From the NCBI RefSeq assembly GCF_007830055.1, contig NZ_VLLE01000003.1, positions 992,001 to 1,056,000 on the forward strand: a stretch of DNA of 64,000 nt, in the 5' to 3' direction. The translations under genes were made by a program, and so were the position numbers. This document shows positions 42,003-49,791 of this stretch, in pieces. The stretch comes from Lacibacter cauensis (GTDB taxonomy: Bacteria > Bacteroidota > Bacteroidia > Chitinophagales > Chitinophagaceae). Position 1 is the first letter of the stretch, and the number at the start of each line of letters is the position of its first letter. The notes under the pieces are model-generated. The model saw nothing but the letters and a program-made list of their open reading frames with translations, was not told where the DNA came from and did no database searches.

Positions 42003-42188
42003 ATGAAAAAGGTTTTATTAGCGTTCGCTATCCTCGGTTTTGTAGCTTGTAACAATGAAGGTGAAAAAGCTGCTACTACAGACACTACTGCTGTAGCTCC
42101 TGCTGCTGACACTACTGCTGCTCCTGCTGCTGATACTACAGCTGCTCCTGCTGCAGATACAACTAAAGCTGACACAACTAAGAAGTAA
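42003..42188 (+). CDS. small Ala/Pro/Thr/Asp-repeat lipoprotein
   Basis: 61 residues. MKKVLLAFAILGFVAC is a lipoprotein signal with Cys at residue 16. After a short charged stretch the mature part is three near-perfect copies of an APAADTTA unit and a lysine-rich end. The repeat at DNA level (about 24 bp per unit) could change number by slippage. Probably an exported, unstructured surface or periplasmic lipoprotein; no function known. Confidence 0.75.
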   Translation: MKKVLLAFAILGFVACNNEGEKAATTDTTAVAPAADTTAAPAADTTAAPAADTTKADTTKK

Positions 42189-42276: not shown

Positions 42277-42293
42277 AATCGTTAACGGCCGTT

Positions 42294-42315
42294 CCATTCC
42301 TGGAATGGCTTTTTT
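42294..42315 (+). terminator. rho-independent terminator after the small lipoprotein gene
   Basis: CCATTC, loop CTG, GAATGG, then C and T6. The lipoprotein stop is about 105 bp upstream. Confidence 0.75.
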
Positions 42316-42401: not shown

Positions 42402-42431
42402 TTGTTTTATTGAAAAGCCTGTCTACATTTG
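42402..42431 (+). promoter_or_regulatory. promoter of the aromatic amino acid operon
   Basis: TTG at 42402-42404, 19 bp, TACATTTG at 42424-42431, a perfect TANNTTTG box. The leader-peptide ATG follows after 6 bp, so the transcript should start at or within a few bases of that ATG. Confidence 0.65.
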
Positions 42432-42437
42432 AACTCG

Positions 42438-42527
42438 ATGACAACAAACAAAGGATACCGTTTCTTTTATTTTAGCTTCTTCTACTTTAGAACGAGGCCG
42501 GGACTCCTTTTGTTGAAAGCGAACTAA
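42438..42527 (+). CDS. Phe/Tyr-rich leader peptide of a transcription attenuator
   Basis: The ATG at 42438 opens a 29-codon frame (TAA at 42525-42527) whose product starts MTTNKGYRFFYFSFFYF. Residues 7-17 hold six Phe and three Tyr in 11 positions. This is the arrangement of pheL-type leader peptides: when charged tRNA-Phe or tRNA-Tyr runs short, the ribosome stalls on these codons. The frame ends 97 bp before pheA, and the codons just after the aromatic run (20-23) form one strand of an antiterminator helix. The operon makes both phenylalanine and tyrosine, which fits the mixture of codons. Not detected by length-based gene finding. Confidence 0.85.
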   Translation: MTTNKGYRFFYFSFFYFRTRPGLLLLKAN

Positions 42528-42562
42528 ACGAACAAACGAAATCAACATAAAGAATCCCGGCC
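42496..42562 (+). promoter_or_regulatory. antiterminator helix of the aromatic attenuator
   Basis: GGCCGGGACTC at 42496-42506, inside the leader peptide frame, can pair with GAATCCCGGCC at 42552-42562 at 10 of 11 positions. The second strand is the left arm of the terminator, so the two structures exclude each other. A ribosome stalled on the Phe/Tyr codons leaves the first strand free; one that finishes translation covers it. Confidence 0.75.
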
Positions 42563-42585
42563 AAAAGGTCGGGATTCTTCATTTT
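42552..42585 (+). terminator. attenuator terminator upstream of pheA
   Basis: GAATCCCGGCC, loop AAAA, GGTCGGGATTC: an 11-bp stem with one G-U pair, followed by TTCATTTT. It lies before the operon, not after a gene, as expected for attenuation. Confidence 0.82.
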
Positions 42586-42592
42586 ACCCCCA

Positions 42593-42606
42593 TCCCCTGA
42601 AGGGGA
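42593..42606. repeat. CCCC..GGGG-type palindrome
   Basis: TCCCCTGAAGGGGA, an imperfect palindrome with a 6-bp stem and 2-nt loop. Similar C/G palindromes occur at 42692-42705 and 46013-46028. Confidence 0.5.
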
Positions 42607-42624
42607 GTAAAACAAAAAACTAAA

Positions 42625-43536
42625 ATGAGTTTAGAGATGACAAGCAAAAAAACAGAGAGTGTAACAAGCGAGGTAAGTGCGGATGCAAGTTCCCCCTTGA
42701 GGGGGCGGAGGGGGCCAAAAGTTACAATTCAAGGTTACGAAGGCAGTTTTCACCAGGAAGCGGCAAGACAATTCTTTGGAAAGGATGTGGAAGTGATTCC
42801 CTGTGCCACATTCAGGGAAGTGGTGAAGATCGGTGCCAACAAAAAAGAAAGCGATGGAGCCGTAATGGCCATTGAGAATTCCATTGCCGGCAGCATTTTG
42901 CCCAATTATAATTTATTGCAAAAAAGTAACCTCACCATTGTTGGTGAAGTGTACCTGCACATCAAACAAAACCTCATCGTCAACCAGGGGGTGAAACTCG
43001 AAGACATTAAAGAAGTGCACTCCCACACAATGGCTCTGCAGCAGTGCTACGACTATTTAGATAAATACAAATGGAAGTTGGTTGAAACAGAAGATACGGC
43101 GTTGAGCGCAAAACATATTTACCAGCATAAGAGCAAGCATGTTGCTGCCATTGCCAGCAAACTTGCTGCCGAATTATATGGACTGAACGTGATTGCCCCC
43201 GGTATTCAAACCATGAAAAACAATTACACACGTTTCTTGATTTTACAACGTGAGCAAAACGGTTCGATTGAACAAGCCAATAAAGCATCGGTGAATTTTG
43301 TAACCGATCATTCGAAAGGAAGCCTGGCAAGAGTGCTTGGACAAATTGCTGATGGTGGCATTAATTTAAGTAAGCTGCAAAGCTTTCCTATTCCCGGTAG
43401 CGATTTTAAATACAGCTTCCATGCCGATATGGAATTTGAAACCATTGAGCAGTTTCATAAAGTGATCGAAGCAATTAAACCTTCAACTGTTGAGTTGAAG
43501 ATCTATGGTGTTTACAAAAACGGAAAGACAGTTTAA
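42625..43536 (+). CDS. pheA: prephenate dehydratase
   Basis: 303 residues. Catalytic domain from about residue 33: VTIQGYEGSFHQEAA, GAVMAIENSIAGSILPNYNLL, and NYTRFLIL, then a C-terminal ACT domain (SLARVLGQIADGGINLSKLQSFPIPG) that binds phenylalanine for feedback control. It converts prephenate to phenylpyruvate. No chorismate mutase domain is fused; that activity is on the DAHP synthase encoded at 46194. The first 30 residues are atypical, partly encoded by a C/G-rich palindromic repeat (residues SSPLRGRRGP). First structural gene after the attenuator. Confidence 0.95.
   Translation: MSLEMTSKKTESVTSEVSADASSPLRGRRGPKVTIQGYEGSFHQEAARQFFGKDVEVIPCATFREVVKIGANKKESDGAVMAIENSIAGSILPNYNLLQKSNLTIVGEVYLHIKQNLIVNQGVKLEDIKEVHSHTMALQQCYDYLDKYKWKLVETEDTALSAKHIYQHKSKHVAAIASKLAAELYGLNVIAPGIQTMKNNYTRFLILQREQNGSIEQANKASVNFVTDHSKGSLARVLGQIADGGINLSKLQSFPIPGSDFKYSFHADMEFETIEQFHKVIEAIKPSTVELKIYGVYKNGKTV
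42691..42716. repeat. C/G-rich palindromic repeat inside the pheA N-terminus
   Basis: CCCCC, loop TTGA, GGGGG at 42692-42705, followed by GGAGGGGG. It is read in frame as SSPLRGRRGP, before the catalytic domain begins. Confidence 0.6.
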
Positions 43537-43537
43537 T

Positions 43538-44689
43538 ATGATACAGACAGCAAAACGATTGGAGAGCATTGGTGAATATTATTTCTCTCAAAAGCTGAGA
43601 GAGATAGAGGAGTTGAATAAGCAAGGCAAGCAGATCATTAATCTTGGTATTGGAAGTCCTGATTTACCCCCGCATCCTGATGTAATTAAAGTATTGCAGG
43701 AAGAAAGTGTAAAGCCAAATGTACATGGTTACCAATCGTACAAAGGATCGATTGTGTTGCGCAAGGCCATGAGTGATTGGTACAAACGCTGGTACAACGT
43801 GGAGCTGAATGCCGATACCGAAATTCTTCCGTTGATTGGAAGTAAGGAAGGTATCATGCATATCTGTATGACGTATTTGAACGAAGGCGATGAAGTACTG
43901 GTGCCCAACCCCGGTTACCCAACATACAGAAGCGCTGTGAAATTGGCAGGTGGCATTTGCGTGGATTATGATCTAACCGAGGCAAATAATTACGCTCCTG
44001 ATTTTGCAGCATTGGAAGCAAGCGATCTTTCAAAAGTGAAGTTGCTATTTGTGAACTATCCGCAAATGCCAACAGGACAGGCAGCTGATAAAAAACTGTT
44101 TGAACAACTCGTTGCATTTGGAAAGAAAACAGGTATCCTCATCATTCATGATAATCCGTATAGTTTTATTTTGAATGACAATCCGATGAGTTTGTTGAGC
44201 GTTGATGGTGCCAAAGATTGTGTACTGGAATTAAACTCACTGAGCAAATCGAGCAATATGGCCGGCTGGAGAGTGGGCATGTTAAGCGGTGCAAAAGAAC
44301 GTATTGATGAAGTGCTGCGTTTTAAAAGCAATATGGACAGTGGTATGTTTTTGCCTTTACAATTAGCTGCAGCAAAAGCATTGAATTTGGGTAAAGATTG
44401 GTACGATAGCGTCAATGCAATTTACCGTGAACGCAGAGAGAAAGTATTTGAATTACTCGATCTGTTGAACTGTAACTATTCAAAGGAACAAGTGGGCATG
44501 TTTGTGTGGGCAAAGATTCCTGCGAACTATAAAACAGGTTACGAAGTGAGTGATGAAGTGTTGTACGGTAGTAATGTATTTATTACACCGGGCGGTATTT
44601 TTGGTAATGCGGGTGATGGATATATCCGCATCAGCTTGTGTGCACCGGTTGAACGGTTTGAAGAAGCAATCAGCAGAATTAAAAAATGA
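43538..44689 (+). CDS. PLP-dependent aminotransferase, probably aromatic/prephenate
   Basis: 383 residues from the ATG at 43538, one base after the pheA stop; a longer frame overlaps pheA. Fold-type I class I/II aminotransferase: NLGIGSPDLPPHP, LIIHDNPYSFI and the PLP lysine in ELNSLSKSSNMAGWRVGM. Being placed between pheA and tyrA, it most likely transaminates phenylpyruvate, 4-hydroxyphenylpyruvate or prephenate. The substrate is inferred from the neighbourhood only. Confidence 0.85.
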   Translation: MIQTAKRLESIGEYYFSQKLREIEELNKQGKQIINLGIGSPDLPPHPDVIKVLQEESVKPNVHGYQSYKGSIVLRKAMSDWYKRWYNVELNADTEILPLIGSKEGIMHICMTYLNEGDEVLVPNPGYPTYRSAVKLAGGICVDYDLTEANNYAPDFAALEASDLSKVKLLFVNYPQMPTGQAADKKLFEQLVAFGKKTGILIIHDNPYSFILNDNPMSLLSVDGAKDCVLELNSLSKSSNMAGWRVGMLSGAKERIDEVLRFKSNMDSGMFLPLQLAAAKALNLGKDWYDSVNAIYRERREKVFELLDLLNCNYSKEQVGMFVWAKIPANYKTGYEVSDEVLYGSNVFITPGGIFGNAGDGYIRISLCAPVERFEEAISRIKK

Positions 44690-44706
44690 TAATTGAATAA
44701 TTGATC

Positions 44707-45555
44707 ATGGAACGTAAACGTATTGCAATCATTGGAGTGGGTTTAATTGGTGGTTCACTCGCCATTCGTCTGCATGAGAAAAAAATCTCATCACGATTGA
44801 TTGGTGTGGATGCCAGCAAAGAAAACGAAGCAAAGGCACTGGAGCTGGAACTGGTAGATGAAATTTTGCCATTGGATGAAGCGATTGCACAAAGCGATGT
44901 AATTGTGTTGGCTTTCCCGGTTGATAAAATGGTGAGCCTGTTGCCATCGATCCTTGATAAAATTGAAAATCAAATTGTAATTGATCTTGGTTCAACCAAA
45001 TCGCAATTGACAGAAGCAGTTGGCAATCATCCAAAACGTGGACGATATGTTGCAACGCACCCGATGTGGGGTACGGAATATAGCGGTCCGGCTGCAGCAG
45101 TACGGAACGCTTATGAAAATAAAGCAGTAATCATTTGTGATGAAGGTGACAGCGACCTGGATGCGTTGGAATGGACCAAAGCGATGTATAAGAAAATTGG
45201 CATGCACCTGTTGAACATGGAAGCGAAAGCACATGATCTGCATGCGGCGTATGTGAGTCATATTTCACACATCACTTCCTTTGCATTAGCAAATACGGTA
45301 TTGCAAAAAGAGAAAGAAGACAATGCCATTTTTGAAATGGCGAGTGCAGGTTTTGAAAGCACGGTGCGTTTGGCAAAGAGTAATCCTGCTATGTGGGTGC
45401 CCATCTTTATCCAGAACAAAGAAAATGTGCTGGATGTATTGAACGAGCACATTGAACAGCTGAAAAAATTCAGAGATAAAATTGAAGAGAGTAACGAACA
45501 GGAGTTGAGAGGGTTGATTGAACATGCAAACAATATCAAACGCATTATTAAATGA
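44707..45555 (+). CDS. tyrA: prephenate dehydrogenase
   Basis: 282 residues from the ATG at 44707 (a TTG at 44701 is in frame). NAD-binding motif IAIIGVGLIGGSLAIRL, then DLGSTKSQ and THPMWGTEYSGP, where the histidine belongs to the conserved substrate site, and a helical C-terminal dimerisation domain (HISHITSFALAN). It oxidatively decarboxylates prephenate to 4-hydroxyphenylpyruvate for tyrosine. No ACT domain is attached, so feedback control by tyrosine is not obvious at the protein; the attenuator may supply it. Overlaps the next gene by 4 bp (ATGA). Confidence 0.93.
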   Translation: MERKRIAIIGVGLIGGSLAIRLHEKKISSRLIGVDASKENEAKALELELVDEILPLDEAIAQSDVIVLAFPVDKMVSLLPSILDKIENQIVIDLGSTKSQLTEAVGNHPKRGRYVATHPMWGTEYSGPAAAVRNAYENKAVIICDEGDSDLDALEWTKAMYKKIGMHLLNMEAKAHDLHAAYVSHISHITSFALANTVLQKEKEDNAIFEMASAGFESTVRLAKSNPAMWVPIFIQNKENVLDVLNEHIEQLKKFRDKIEESNEQELRGLIEHANNIKRIIK

Positions 45556-45998
45556 TCTTTCGTGAAGCGACCATACAGGATATTCATCAAATGCAGATTG
45601 TACGCAATGCTGTAAAGGAAAACACATTGAGTGATCCTGCATTGGTAAGCGATTCTGATGTGGAAGCATATATTACGAAACGTGGAAAAGGATGGGTGTG
45701 CACCATCGGTGATGCAGTTGTTGGATTTGCGATTGCTGATTTAGTGGATCACAATATCTGGGCTTTGTTTGTGAATCCTGATGTGGAGGCAAGAGGCATC
45801 GGTAAACAATTACACGACCTGATGATGAACTGGTACTTTGAACAGACAAATGAAGCGGTTTGGTTGAGTACAAGTCCGGGAACAAGAGCAGAAACATTTT
45901 ATCGCAAGCAGGGATGGATTGAAACGGGTTTGCATGGAAAAGGAGAGATCAAATTTGAAATGACGGAAGAAAGATTTAGAGAGATGAATGATGAGTGA
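45552..45998 (+). CDS. GNAT-family acetyltransferase
   Basis: 148 residues. The acetyl-CoA binding motif A is WALFVNPDVEARGIGKQLHDLMMNW (Q/RxxGxG/A type) and a final strand FYRKQGWIETG follows, as in GNAT proteins. It shares the ATGA overlap with tyrA and so is translated with the aromatic operon, but there is no known role for it in that pathway. Substrate unknown. Confidence 0.85.
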   Translation: MIFREATIQDIHQMQIVRNAVKENTLSDPALVSDSDVEAYITKRGKGWVCTIGDAVVGFAIADLVDHNIWALFVNPDVEARGIGKQLHDLMMNWYFEQTNEAVWLSTSPGTRAETFYRKQGWIETGLHGKGEIKFEMTEERFREMNDE

Positions 45999-46193: not shown

Positions 46194-47282
46194 ATGCAAA
46201 CATTAGAAGCAAACATGAAAGAAAAAGTGCAGGCAGCATGGAATAAACGTCCGCTGGTGATCAGTGGTCCTTGCAGTGCCGAAACAGAAGAGCAACTGGT
46301 TGCCACAGCGCAACAGTTAGCCGCAACAGGTAAAGTAGATATTCTGCGTGCAGGTATCTGGAAACCTCGTACCAAACCCGGTATGTTCGAAGGGATTGGC
46401 GCAAAAGGTTTACCCTGGTTACAAAAAGCAAAACAGTTAACAGGCTTACCAACCGCAGCAGAAGTAGCAACTGCTAAACAAGTAGAAGATGCGTTGACGT
46501 TTGATGTTGATGTATTATGGATCGGTGCACGTACAACGGTGAACCCTTTTAGCGTACAGGAAGTAGCTGATGCGTTACGTGGTGTGGATGTGCCTGTGTT
46601 GATCAAAAACCCGATCAATCCTGATTTGGAGTTGTGGAGTGGTGCAGTAGAGCGTGTTGCACGTGCAGGTATTAAACAAATTGGTTTGATCCATCGTGGT
46701 TTTTCCTCGTATGGTAATACCGAATACCGCAATGCACCGATGTGGCATTTAGCGATTGAAATGAAACGTCGCAATCCTGAGATGATGATCATTAATGATC
46801 CTTCGCATATTTGCGGACGCAGAGATATTTTGCAGGAAACTGCACAACGTGCAATTGATCTCGACTTTGATGGTGTGATGATCGAAAGTCATATTGATCC
46901 AGACAATGCATGGAGCGATGCGAAACAACAGGTTACTCCTGAGCGTTTGGGTGAAATGATCGGTAACATCATCTGGCGTAAAGAAGATGTGGCATCGGAA
47001 GAATATCATGCTGCATTGGAAAAATTGCGTCAGCAGATCAATCATTTGGACGACGAGTTGATGCAGATCATTGGTCAGCGTATGAAAATTGCTGAAAGCA
47101 TTGGTCAGTACAAAAAAGATAACAATATCACCATCTTGCAAACAAACCGCTGGAACGAAATTCTGGAGCGTGCTTACAGAGAAGGCGAACGTAAAGGTTT
47201 GAGCAAAGAGTTTATCACCAAGTATTTTGATGCGGTGCACATGGAAAGCATTAACCATCAGAAGAAGGTGTTGGATTCGTAA
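46194..47282 (+). CDS. DAHP synthase fused to chorismate mutase
   Basis: 362 residues. Residues 1-260 are a type I-beta/KDO8P-like DAHP synthase (LVISGPCSAETEEQL, AGIWKPRTKPGMFEGIG, NDPSHICGRRD). The last 90 residues are an AroQ-type chorismate mutase (LEKLRQQINHLDDELMQIIGQRMKIAESIGQYKK). It therefore performs the first committed step of the shikimate pathway and the branch step to prephenate. Such fusions are known in Bacteroidota and usually allow feedback control by prephenate or chorismate. First gene after a 195-bp gap, so it may have its own promoter. Confidence 0.93.
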   Translation: MQTLEANMKEKVQAAWNKRPLVISGPCSAETEEQLVATAQQLAATGKVDILRAGIWKPRTKPGMFEGIGAKGLPWLQKAKQLTGLPTAAEVATAKQVEDALTFDVDVLWIGARTTVNPFSVQEVADALRGVDVPVLIKNPINPDLELWSGAVERVARAGIKQIGLIHRGFSSYGNTEYRNAPMWHLAIEMKRRNPEMMIINDPSHICGRRDILQETAQRAIDLDFDGVMIESHIDPDNAWSDAKQQVTPERLGEMIGNIIWRKEDVASEEYHAALEKLRQQINHLDDELMQIIGQRMKIAESIGQYKKDNNITILQTNRWNEILERAYREGERKGLSKEFITKYFDAVHMESINHQKKVLDS

Positions 47283-47432: not shown

Positions 47433-48458
47433 ATGGTAAAACAGACCTACCAATTTTCTACCGCATCGGTTGATTATTATTTCAACGGCAGTATGGAGCA
47501 ACTGTCTGCAATTGCAGATAGCCACAGCACTGTGCTCATTACCGATGAAAATGTTTTTGCTGCACACCCTGCAAAATTCAATGGCTGGAAAACCATTGTA
47601 ATGAAAGCAGGTGAGGCGCATAAAATACAAGCAACAGTTGATGATGTTATTCGGCAGTTGATCGAATTGGGTGCCGATCGTAAATCAACACTTGTGGGTG
47701 TTGGTGGTGGTGTGGTAACCGATATGGTTGGCTACATTGCTGCGGTGTACATGCGTGGTATTGCCTGCGGCTTTATTCCTACAACTATTCTTGCCATGGT
47801 TGATGCAAGCATTGGTGGTAAGAATGGAATTGATGTAGGAGTTTACAAGAACATGGTGGGTACTATCCGTCAGCCTTCGTTTTTATTGTATGATGTTTCG
47901 TTGCTGGAATCGTTGCCCTTAAAAGAATGGGAAAACGGTTTTGCAGAAGTCATTAAGCATGCTGCTATTAAAGATGCAGCGATGTTTGATGAGCTGGAGC
48001 AACATTCAATCGTATACTACCAGAGCAACAAAGAAGCATTGCAGCAGTTAATTGAACGTAACTGTTTAATTAAAACCAAAGTGGTGCAGGAAGATGAGTT
48101 TGAAAAAGCTGATCGCAAGTTGTTGAATCTTGGACATACGCTTGGACATGCAATTGAGAATAAATATTTGCTGATGCATGGTCATGCAGTAACAATCGGA
48201 ATGATTGCAGCAGCAAAAATTTCGGAAACGATCAACAATTTTTCTTCTGCCGAAACGCAACGCCTCACCAGGCTTATTGAACAATACGGACTCACTTCTT
48301 CTTTTTTGTTTGATAAGGCAGAAGCTTTTGAAACATTGAAGAAAGACAAAAAGAAAGCACAGGATGTAATGCAATATGTTGTGCTCAATAAAATAGGCGA
48401 AGCCAAAGTGATGAATATTCCTTTGGTGCAGCTGAAAGAATTAATTGAAAATTTATAA
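47433..48458 (+). CDS. aroB: 3-dehydroquinate synthase
   Basis: 341 residues. NAD-binding and metal-site segments are in place: GVGGGVVTDMVGYIAAVYMRGI, DASIGGKNGIDV, NGFAEVIKHA, and the zinc ligands in NLGHTLGHAIE and HGHAVTIGM. It cyclises DAHP to 3-dehydroquinate, second step of the shikimate pathway. Follows the DAHP synthase by about 150 bp containing two repeats. Confidence 0.95.
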   Translation: MVKQTYQFSTASVDYYFNGSMEQLSAIADSHSTVLITDENVFAAHPAKFNGWKTIVMKAGEAHKIQATVDDVIRQLIELGADRKSTLVGVGGGVVTDMVGYIAAVYMRGIACGFIPTTILAMVDASIGGKNGIDVGVYKNMVGTIRQPSFLLYDVSLLESLPLKEWENGFAEVIKHAAIKDAAMFDELEQHSIVYYQSNKEALQQLIERNCLIKTKVVQEDEFEKADRKLLNLGHTLGHAIENKYLLMHGHAVTIGMIAAAKISETINNFSSAETQRLTRLIEQYGLTSSFLFDKAEAFETLKKDKKKAQDVMQYVVLNKIGEAKVMNIPLVQLKELIENL

Positions 48459-48504: not shown

Positions 48505-49791
48505 ATGAAGGTTACAATACATCCATCAACTATTACGGGAACCATTCAGTCGAACGCATCAAAAAGTTCGATGCAGCGTGCATGCGCTGCTGCATTGGTG
48601 GCGAAAGGAAAAAGTATCATTAAAAATCCAGGTCATAGTAACGATGATAAAGCAGCGATGGATATTACCCAACGCCTGGGTGGTACTGTTGCCAACAATG
48701 GGAATGAACTCATTATTGAAAGCAATGGTGTGCAACCCGTAAGCAGCGAGATCAATTGCGGCGAAAGTGGATTAAGCATCCGCATGTTTACACCACTGGT
48801 GGCATTGAGCAATCATGCACTAACGGTGAACGGCAGCGGCAGTTTGGTGACAAGGCCAATGGATTTCTTTGATGAGATATTGCCACAGCTGGGTGTGCAG
48901 GTGAAAAGTAATGAAGGTAAGTTGCCGTTGAATATCCAAGGGCCGATCGTTCCGGAAAATATTACCATTGATGGTTCACTCAGCTCACAGTTCTTAACGG
49001 GCTTGTTGCTGGCGTATGCAGCCAGCAATGCAAGTGATGTTTCGATCACTGTGACCAATCTTAAAAGCAAACCATACATCGATCTTACGCTCGATGTAAT
49101 GAAACAGTTTGGTTTGAAAGTGCCGGAGAATAAAAATTACGAATCGTTTTATTTTGCTCCGTCCACTCACGACTCACTCCCGATAGCTATCGGGATCACG
49201 ACTCACCACTACACCGTAGAAGGCGATTGGAGTGGTGCTGCTTTCTTACTTGTTGCAGGTGCAATTGCCGGAAACATTGTCGTGAAAGGATTGGATGTGT
49301 TTTCTCCACAGGCCGACAAAGCCGTGTTACAGGCGTTGATGGATTGCGGTTGCATTATTTCTATTCAGCCCGAACAGATTGAAATTGGTCCGGCACCATT
49401 AAAGCCTTTCCATTTTAATGCAACCGAATGTCCCGATCTGTTTCCGCCGTTGGTTGCTTTGGCATCTTACTGCAAAGGCAAATCGGTGATTGAAGGCACC
49501 ACACGTTTAACACATAAAGAAAGTAACCGTGCATTAACACTGCAGGAAGAATTTGCAAAGCTGGGTGTAACAATTGAGTTGCAGGATGATCTCATGATCG
49601 TTCATGGCGGCGGCAGATTAAAAGGTGCTACTGTGCATTCCCGTCACGATCATCGTATTGCAATGGCTTGTGCAGTTGCTGGTTTAAAAGCTGCAGGTGA
49701 TGTAATAATTGAAGAAGCAGAAGCAATCAATAAATCGTATCCTGATTTTTATGAGCATCTTAAGTTATTAAAAGCTTCCGTATCTTACTGA
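48505..49791 (+). CDS. aroA: 3-phosphoshikimate 1-carboxyvinyltransferase (EPSP synthase)
   Basis: 428 residues. SNASKSSMQRACAAALVAKGKS, GESGLSIRMFTPL, TIDGSLSSQFLTGLL and VHSRHDHRIAMACAVAGL are the family signatures with the phosphate-binding lysine and the catalytic residues near LDVMKQFG. At residues 218-234 a stretch THDSLPIAIGITTHH interrupts the region just before YTVEGDWSGAA; it is encoded by a palindrome flanked by a direct repeat and looks like an in-frame insertion. The enzyme should still be active, because the active-site motifs are intact. Confidence 0.94.
   Translation: MKVTIHPSTITGTIQSNASKSSMQRACAAALVAKGKSIIKNPGHSNDDKAAMDITQRLGGTVANNGNELIIESNGVQPVSSEINCGESGLSIRMFTPLVALSNHALTVNGSGSLVTRPMDFFDEILPQLGVQVKSNEGKLPLNIQGPIVPENITIDGSLSSQFLTGLLLAYAASNASDVSITVTNLKSKPYIDLTLDVMKQFGLKVPENKNYESFYFAPSTHDSLPIAIGITTHHYTVEGDWSGAAFLLVAGAIAGNIVVKGLDVFSPQADKAVLQALMDCGCIISIQPEQIEIGPAPLKPFHFNATECPDLFPPLVALASYCKGKSVIEGTTRLTHKESNRALTLQEEFAKLGVTIELQDDLMIVHGGGRLKGATVHSRHDHRIAMACAVAGLKAAGDVIIEEAEAINKSYPDFYEHLKLLKASVSY
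49165..49210. repeat. 18-bp palindrome with flanking direct repeats inside aroA
   Basis: TCCCGATAGCTATCGGGA at 49178-49195 is a perfect palindrome. It is bordered by CTCACGACTCAC at 49166-49177 and ATCACGACTCAC at 49195-49206. The element keeps the aroA frame open. Confidence 0.75.

Follow-up and report, generated by a model that had tools for sequence, protein, structure and literature searches.

A predicted ribosome-mediated attenuator with Phe and Tyr codons upstream of the pheA-tyrA genes in Lacibacter cauensis and its relatives

The region upstream of pheA was analyzed in a 64,000-nt stretch of the Lacibacter cauensis genome (contig NZ_VLLE01000003.1, positions 992,001 to 1,056,000), which is referred to below as the window. 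As listed in Table 1, pheA is preceded by a putative promoter, a short leader ORF rich in aromatic codons and an intrinsic terminator. The gene order suggests that the DAHP synthase/chorismate mutase fusion gene, which lies behind a gap of 195 nt, and aroB and aroA belong to the same operon as pheA. Both Phe and Tyr are products of this operon because the genes downstream of the leader encode a dehydratase, an aminotransferase, a dehydrogenase, a GNAT protein, the fusion protein, AroB and AroA, and the mixed Phe and Tyr codons suit such an operon, as the initial annotation of this DNA had suggested. Further upstream, positions 42003-42188 encode a small Ala/Thr-rich protein whose match to the PG1828 lipoprotein family is weak (34.2 bits versus a cut-off of 50), and a terminator-like site found by a terminator scan (42287-42310) lies between this gene and the candidate attenuator.

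Table 1. Features of the pheA upstream region and the genes behind it, in window coordinates.
Feature	Position	Strand	Basis
-33 element TTG, Bacteroidota-type promoter	42402..42404	+	read from sequence; putative function
-7 box TACATTTG (TAnnTTTG)	42424..42431	+	sequence; 19 bp 3' of TTG
predicted transcript start	42436	+	from position of the -7 box
leader ORF, ATG 42438 to TAA, 29 codons, peptide MTTNKGYRFFYFSFFYFRTRPGLLLLKAN	42438..42527	+	read directly
regulatory run of 11 codons (codons 7-17) with 6 Phe and 3 Tyr	42456..42488	+	sequence
candidate strand 1 (partner: strand 2)	42442..42460	+	folding, shuffle tests
strand 2, within leader ORF, 7 nt past aromatic run	42496..42516	+	folding, covariation
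strand 3 of antiterminator; 3' half is left arm of terminator	42542..42562	+	folding, covariation
intrinsic terminator 3:4 with T-rich tail	42550..42586	+	folding, covariation; stem 42550-42562/42567-42579, core 42552-42577
pheA, prephenate dehydratase, first controlled gene (predicted)	42625..43536	+	PF00800
class I/II aminotransferase	43505..44689	+	PF00155
tyrA, prephenate dehydrogenase	44701..45555	+	NF006307 above cut-off, PF02153
GNAT acetyltransferase	45552..45998	+	PF00583
DAHP synthase/chorismate mutase fusion	46194..47282	+	PF00793 and PF01817
aroB, 3-dehydroquinate synthase	47433..48458	+	TIGR01357 above cut-off
aroA, 3-phosphoshikimate 1-carboxyvinyltransferase	48505..49791	+	TIGR01356 above cut-off

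Reading of the sequence confirmed the promoter elements that had been proposed earlier (TTG, 19 bp, TACATTTG) and the leader, with its six Phe and three Tyr codons in a run of 11. This promoter was not listed by a simple sigma-70 promoter scan of the window, which looks for E. coli-type sites and has TAnnTTTG outside its scope. The terminator proposed at 42552-42577 also stood, and the 13-pair stem of strands 3 and 4 (3:4) folds alone with -22.2 kcal/mol (z -7.7). Its T-rich tail is present but interrupted (TTCATTTTA), and the hairpin was not listed by a simple terminator scan of the window. The antiterminator had been described as an 11-nt segment (42496-42506) that pairs with the left arm of the terminator at 10 of 11 positions, and a count by eye gave the same number. 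The mutually exclusive helix was upheld but its extent was not: the segment is only part of a helix in which strand 2 (42496-42516) forms 18 pairs with strand 3 (42542-42562). The fold of 42490-42566 that contains this 2:3 helix has -26.0 kcal/mol and a z of -6.3, and none of 200 shuffled sequences equaled it. RNA that stops short of strand 4 (42438-42566) folds as 2:3, and for RNA that includes strand 4 (42438-42586) the minimum combines 3:4 with a small hairpin and a hairpin resembling 1:2. Taken by itself, the leader ORF (1:2) has a fold only modestly better than that of shuffled sequences (z -1.9, 9 of 200 as good). Strand 1 precedes the aromatic run and extends into its start, and the greater part of the run falls within the loop of 1:2.

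Of 117 entries collected, six were repeat hits; the other 111 pheA loci of family relatives, the window's own included, served for comparison, and 98 were left once identical copies had been removed. The best short upstream ORF had 7 to 11 Phe or Tyr codons per 11 codons in 110 of the 111 loci, the exception (L074) being a sequence that ends 92 nt 5' of the gene. A run of at least seven F, Y or W per 12 codons was present in 98 of the 98 distinct loci versus 12 of 490 shuffled sequences. Phe and Tyr codons occurred together in all 98 leaders, and Trp codons were also found in 19. A terminator-like hairpin with a T-rich tail was found in 97 of the 98, and in 94 of these 97 the 2:3 pairing was better than 95% of shuffles (median z -5.0). 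In terms of geometry, for which 10 listed loci were dropped and 88 remained, strand 2 starts a median of 7 nt after the aromatic run (5-95%: 6 to 11 nt). Part of this closeness is built in, since strand 2 was sought from the run's end onward. In 87 of these 88 loci, the leader stop falls within the interval from the start of strand 2 to 20 nt beyond its end. Strand 2 varies together with strand 3, as in L052, L060 and L086 (GCGGGG with CCCCCG) and in L069 (AGAGGAT with ATCCTCC). Two records with an aromatic leader and a Chitinophagaceae-like pheA are labelled Beijerinckiaceae (L087) and Ignavibacteriales (L101), and these are perhaps mislabelled bins.

Covariation was analyzed on two alignments. 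The first (A1) held 81 of the 98 loci, after the exclusion of 13 Chitinophaga loci and of L009, L013, L017 and L019, for which the hairpin finder gave no hairpin or, judged by eye, the wrong one (17 in all). Because A1 shifted one group of loci (subtype B) by one column at strand 2, pairs were counted on a second alignment (A2) of 52 of the 81 loci, thus 52 of the 98, that were selected for alignability. The remaining 29, which comprised subtype B, loci with indels near strand 2, one near-duplicate and outliers, entered the per-sequence tests only, and the 12 subtype B loci were aligned apart. On A2, nine pairs of 2:3 changed on both sides (5.4 in shuffles), with 42 such cells (13.8 in shuffles) and a covariation score of 0.152 versus 0.078. 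For 3:4, eight pairs changed on both sides (2.7 in shuffles), with a score of 0.293 versus 0.179. A slide by one column lowered the pairing from 86.9% to 50.8 and 46.1% for 2:3, and from 94.8% to 61.2 and 60.5% for 3:4. When 2:3 was slid by +1, nine pairs again changed on both sides, yet in 13 cells versus 42. Among the 18 pairs of the 2:3 model, two are mostly unpaired (in 28 and 42 of the 52 sequences). The conservation that the initial annotation had proposed to look for upstream of related pheA genes was found: relatives retain the terminator, the aromatic run and the alternative helix, and compensatory changes are seen.

In the shuffle test for 1:2, 47 of 81 loci passed at the 5% level, and 80.8% of the 1:2 cells in A2 were paired. 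Within A2, no excess of 1:2 covariation over shuffles was seen. Strands 1 and 2 differ together between the subtypes: strand 1 AAAAGCAT stands opposite strand 2 ATGCTTTT in subtype A, and GCAAATACA opposite TGTATTTGC in subtype B. A hybrid of the A-type strand 1 and the B-type strand 2 cost a mean of 4.3 kcal/mol, and the reverse combination cost 2.5 kcal/mol (43 A and 12 B loci). Within subtype A, the cognate 1:2 combination was no better than the swapped one (-15.87 versus -15.91). A 1:2 helix is likely and may oppose the antiterminator, with weaker support than that for 2:3 and 3:4.

The promoter box TAnnTTTG was found 4-10 nt 5' of the leader ATG in 73 of the 98 family loci, with the leader start taken as the last in-frame ATG 5' of the aromatic run. 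A box lying wholly within 20 nt of the ATG was observed 73 times, compared to a mean of 2.6 and a maximum of 8 in 100 shuffles. Since the box is placed at -12 to -5 in passages of a Flavobacterium psychrophilum study (PMC9723704), the predicted 5' UTR is 0 to 6 nt in length, and about 2 nt in the window. The leader ORF thus looks nearly leaderless in these 73 loci, because the box from which the transcript start is predicted sits so close to the ATG. According to the same passages, leaderless mRNAs make up 5.5% in F. psychrophilum (PMC9723704), and an excerpt of another report gives about 3.7% for 5' UTRs shorter than 10 nt in B. thetaiotaomicron (PMC7366714). In the window, the box was found at 4-10 nt for 1 of 51 large ORFs, with a crude choice of start codons. 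Outside the family, it was found at 7-10 nt in three of the five loci of family f18, and in other distant loci the gap was larger or no exact box was found. The short distance from the predicted transcript start to the start codon, and a candidate strand 1 with which the classical scheme would be complete, are additions to the first reading of this DNA.

Ribosome-mediated attenuation is a textbook mechanism, and the locus has an upstream ORF rich in codons for the products, an intrinsic terminator, and a mutually exclusive antiterminator on a strand that a ribosome could cover. We propose, with a probability of roughly 0.93, that a ribosome-mediated transcription attenuator sensing charged tRNA-Phe and tRNA-Tyr controls the pheA-tyrA genes. 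The comparison of sequences demonstrates the parts, their conservation, the covariation of 2:3 and 3:4 and the conserved spacing, and from these we infer where the transcript starts, that the leader is translated, that the ribosome stalls, what 1:2 does and when read-through occurs, as follows. Transcription would begin at about 42436, and a ribosome would load at once on the nearly leaderless AUG. When Phe or Tyr is scarce, the ribosome would stall within codons 7-17, and an early stall would cover strand 1 and free strand 2 for pairing with strand 3. Because strand 2 would then be paired with strand 3, the terminator could not form and pheA-tyrA would be transcribed. When Phe and Tyr are plentiful, the ribosome would continue to the stop codon (42525), which places it on the 3' part of strand 2 or slightly beyond, and with the ribosome at this position 1:2 and 3:4 would form and transcription would end at about 42580. 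The coverage of strands 1 and 2 by an early stalled ribosome and by a ribosome at the stop codon is estimated from ribosome footprint sizes.

The retention of the short ORF in all 98 family loci would also fit a conserved functional peptide, with the RNA structure being incidental, and an attenuator leader peptide that acts in trans has a precedent in peTrpL of Sinorhizobium meliloti, as described in part of a published report (PMC7298713). However, the family leaders keep their composition and not the order of their residues, as F and Y interchange. The tail of the peptide tracks the RNA instead: the CCGGG of strand 2 is read in frame 0 in 62, in frame 2 in 10 and in frame 1 in 6 of the 98 leaders (it was not found by the script in 20), and the peptide ends vary because CCGGG falls in different frames (PGMLLL, SRVVFAK, PGCFC). 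In addition, neither Pfam nor NCBIfam gave a match (E 0.001) for the peptide of the window. A functional peptide is therefore very improbable as the reason for this conservation.

A 2:3/3:4 switch alone would fit any sensor, and the ORF could be a passenger if an RNA-binding protein, a riboswitch or a T-box drove the switch. However, no Rfam 15 family was reached at the gathering threshold in the window, riboswitches and T-boxes included, and all 98 leaders combine Phe and Tyr codons with a narrow spacing of the run, strand 2 and the stop, which makes such a sensor a shade less credible than even a functional peptide. An ordinary terminator next to a chance ORF, without regulation, can be practically dismissed, since AT-rich regions do sometimes yield Phe/Tyr-rich ORFs (the 12 of 490 shuffles) but the conservation, the covariation and the linkage to pheA argue against it, and both the run and the pairing proved to be conserved.

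The distribution of the proposed Phe/Tyr attenuator was analyzed using a covariance model of the leader. In this search, which applies stricter filters above 40 genomes, 27 of 59 genomes had a single match each at E 0.01, located at pheA or shortly before it. The matches were found in 27 of the 29 family genomes with pheA (own included), in none of the 7 family genomes that lack pheA, and in none of 23 other genomes of the order. A distant set of 79 pheA loci was hand-picked among the places listed by the genome searches; pheA matches are also present in the class families f24 and f30, which are outside this sample. An aromatic leader preceded pheA in 50 of the 79 distant loci versus 6 of 395 shuffled sequences. 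Such a leader was present in 43 of 43 loci of seven families, two of the order (f18 and f19) and five of the class, which we take to be Bacteroidia (f23, f25, f29, f31 and f32), as well as in 3 of 6 loci of f28, in 0 of 10 loci of five other families of the order, and in 4 of 20 loci outside the class. The 2:3 pairing passed the 5% level in 46 of the 50 loci with an aromatic leader, and this count includes loci for which the hairpin finder picked poor hairpins (e.g. L162, L171, L172 and L174).

Two tandem aromatic leaders were found in 13 of the 14 records named Chitinophaga (L104-L106 and L108-L117), where they start about 340 and 190 nt 5' of the conserved part of pheA, and the first leader contained a Trp codon in 13 of 13. 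Two leaders before pheA were also found in family f29 (3 of 3, L162-L164). A terminator-like hairpin lies behind each leader in the tandem loci, and both switches passed the 2:3 test in 14 of 16 (12 of 13 in Chitinophaga and 2 of 3 in f29). The second aromatic clusters present in L118 and L171 were not counted as tandem.

In enterobacteria, the pheL-pheA attenuator (Phe_leader) consists of a Phe-rich leader ORF before pheA, a terminator and a competing antiterminator. The window element is similar to pheL-pheA (RF01859) in these parts, and it differs in having mixed Phe and Tyr codons, a pheA-aminotransferase-tyrA gene order and a start codon that follows the predicted transcript start by about 2 nt. 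The two have no recognizable sequence relation, as the Rfam Phe_leader model scored 21.2 bits on the + strand of the window versus a gathering threshold of 55, which leaves the window outside this family. This match, from a search at E up to 10, was rejected as evidence because the opposite strand scored higher (26.8 bits). The window element, as proposed here, works like a Phe attenuator yet falls outside Rfam Phe_leader.

A 2004 survey of attenuators by Vitreschak reportedly mentions Bacteroidetes/Chlorobi in its abstract. In 2010, as stated in a passage of another paper, leader-peptide systems were unproven outside the Proteobacteria and Actinobacteria, except for the atypical ermC leader (PMC2965389). 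The initial annotation knew of no described example for this operon in Bacteroidota, and this view has to be narrowed, as passages of the F. psychrophilum study present strong indications that amino-acid operons are under leader-peptide attenuation and report separately a conserved structured 5' element before pheA, without Rfam hits, that is also present in other Flavobacteriaceae genera (PMC9723704). That element concerns the same gene in the same phylum, and the main-text passages give no leader sequence or strands for it (PMC9723704). The attenuator RNA of trpL, a Trp leader from the alphaproteobacterium S. meliloti, begins at the leader ATG according to part of the report (PMC7298713), which resembles the start predicted for the window element. 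The tandem attenuators of mgtCBR have two serial leader ORFs on one operon as in Chitinophaga, but they read two different signals (ATP and proline), whereas the Chitinophaga leaders are both aromatic (PMC3641672). The mechanism, clues for attenuation in Bacteroidota, leaderless attenuator RNA and tandem attenuators elsewhere are thus known already, as far as these passages describe them (PMC9723704, PMC7298713, PMC3641672). A search of the openly licensed literature found no pheA leader peptide of Chitinophagaceae in print, and the Chitinophagaceae element, its strands, the near-leaderless start and the doubled aromatic form appear to be unprinted in that literature.

To our knowledge, the absence of Shine-Dalgarno sequences is valid across the phylum. 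In F. psychrophilum, these sequences are absent according to passages of the study (PMC9723704). Attenuation by a stalled ribosome requires the leader ribosome to follow the RNA polymerase closely, and a conserved, covarying pheA attenuator is indirect evidence for the coupling of transcription and translation in a phylum without Shine-Dalgarno sequences. The pheA leader offers a simple reporter for this coupling, and it represents a regulatory RNA beyond the Rfam 15 families searched in the window that occurs in a natural series of two attenuators. There is about an even chance, in our estimate, that much of the Bacteroidia runs aromatic synthesis by attenuation without Shine-Dalgarno sequences, that many Chitinophagaceae load the ribosome promptly via a leaderless leader, and that Chitinophaga has two serial gates, the first of which also reads Trp.

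Four other leaders were observed in the same genome (L224, L225, L227 and L229). These are a His-rich leader (MISNTHTHHHHTCPTR) 5' of hisG, a Trp-rich leader (MNKTFVNTQWWWHTTLKGL) 5' of trpE, an Ile/Val-rich leader that lies 1.25 kb 5' of ilvD and directly before a gene resembling, by eye, a branched-chain aminotransferase, and a Thr-rich leader 5' of an aspartokinase gene whose frame spans 817 aa. Judged by eye, hairpins with T runs come after three of these leaders (his, trp and ilv), and no clear T run comes after the Thr leader. A TAnnTTTG box lies 4 nt from the ATG of the his leader, so that this leader is possibly leaderless, and no exact box was found near the other three leaders.

The gap between the leader and the conserved part of pheA is 190 nt in the window versus about 65-75 nt in many relatives. 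A C/G palindromic repeat (CCCCTGAAGGGG type) is present twice in this region, once after the terminator (42587-42613) and once within the 5' portion of the pheA ORF (42688-42718), where it is read as SSPLRGRRGP. The window has six matches to the repeat with at most two mismatches versus 1.8 expected, and 3 of 100 shuffles reached six. Similar copies were observed on contigs C1, C2, C3, C5 and C6 and, on inspection by eye, also behind the trp terminator (L225).
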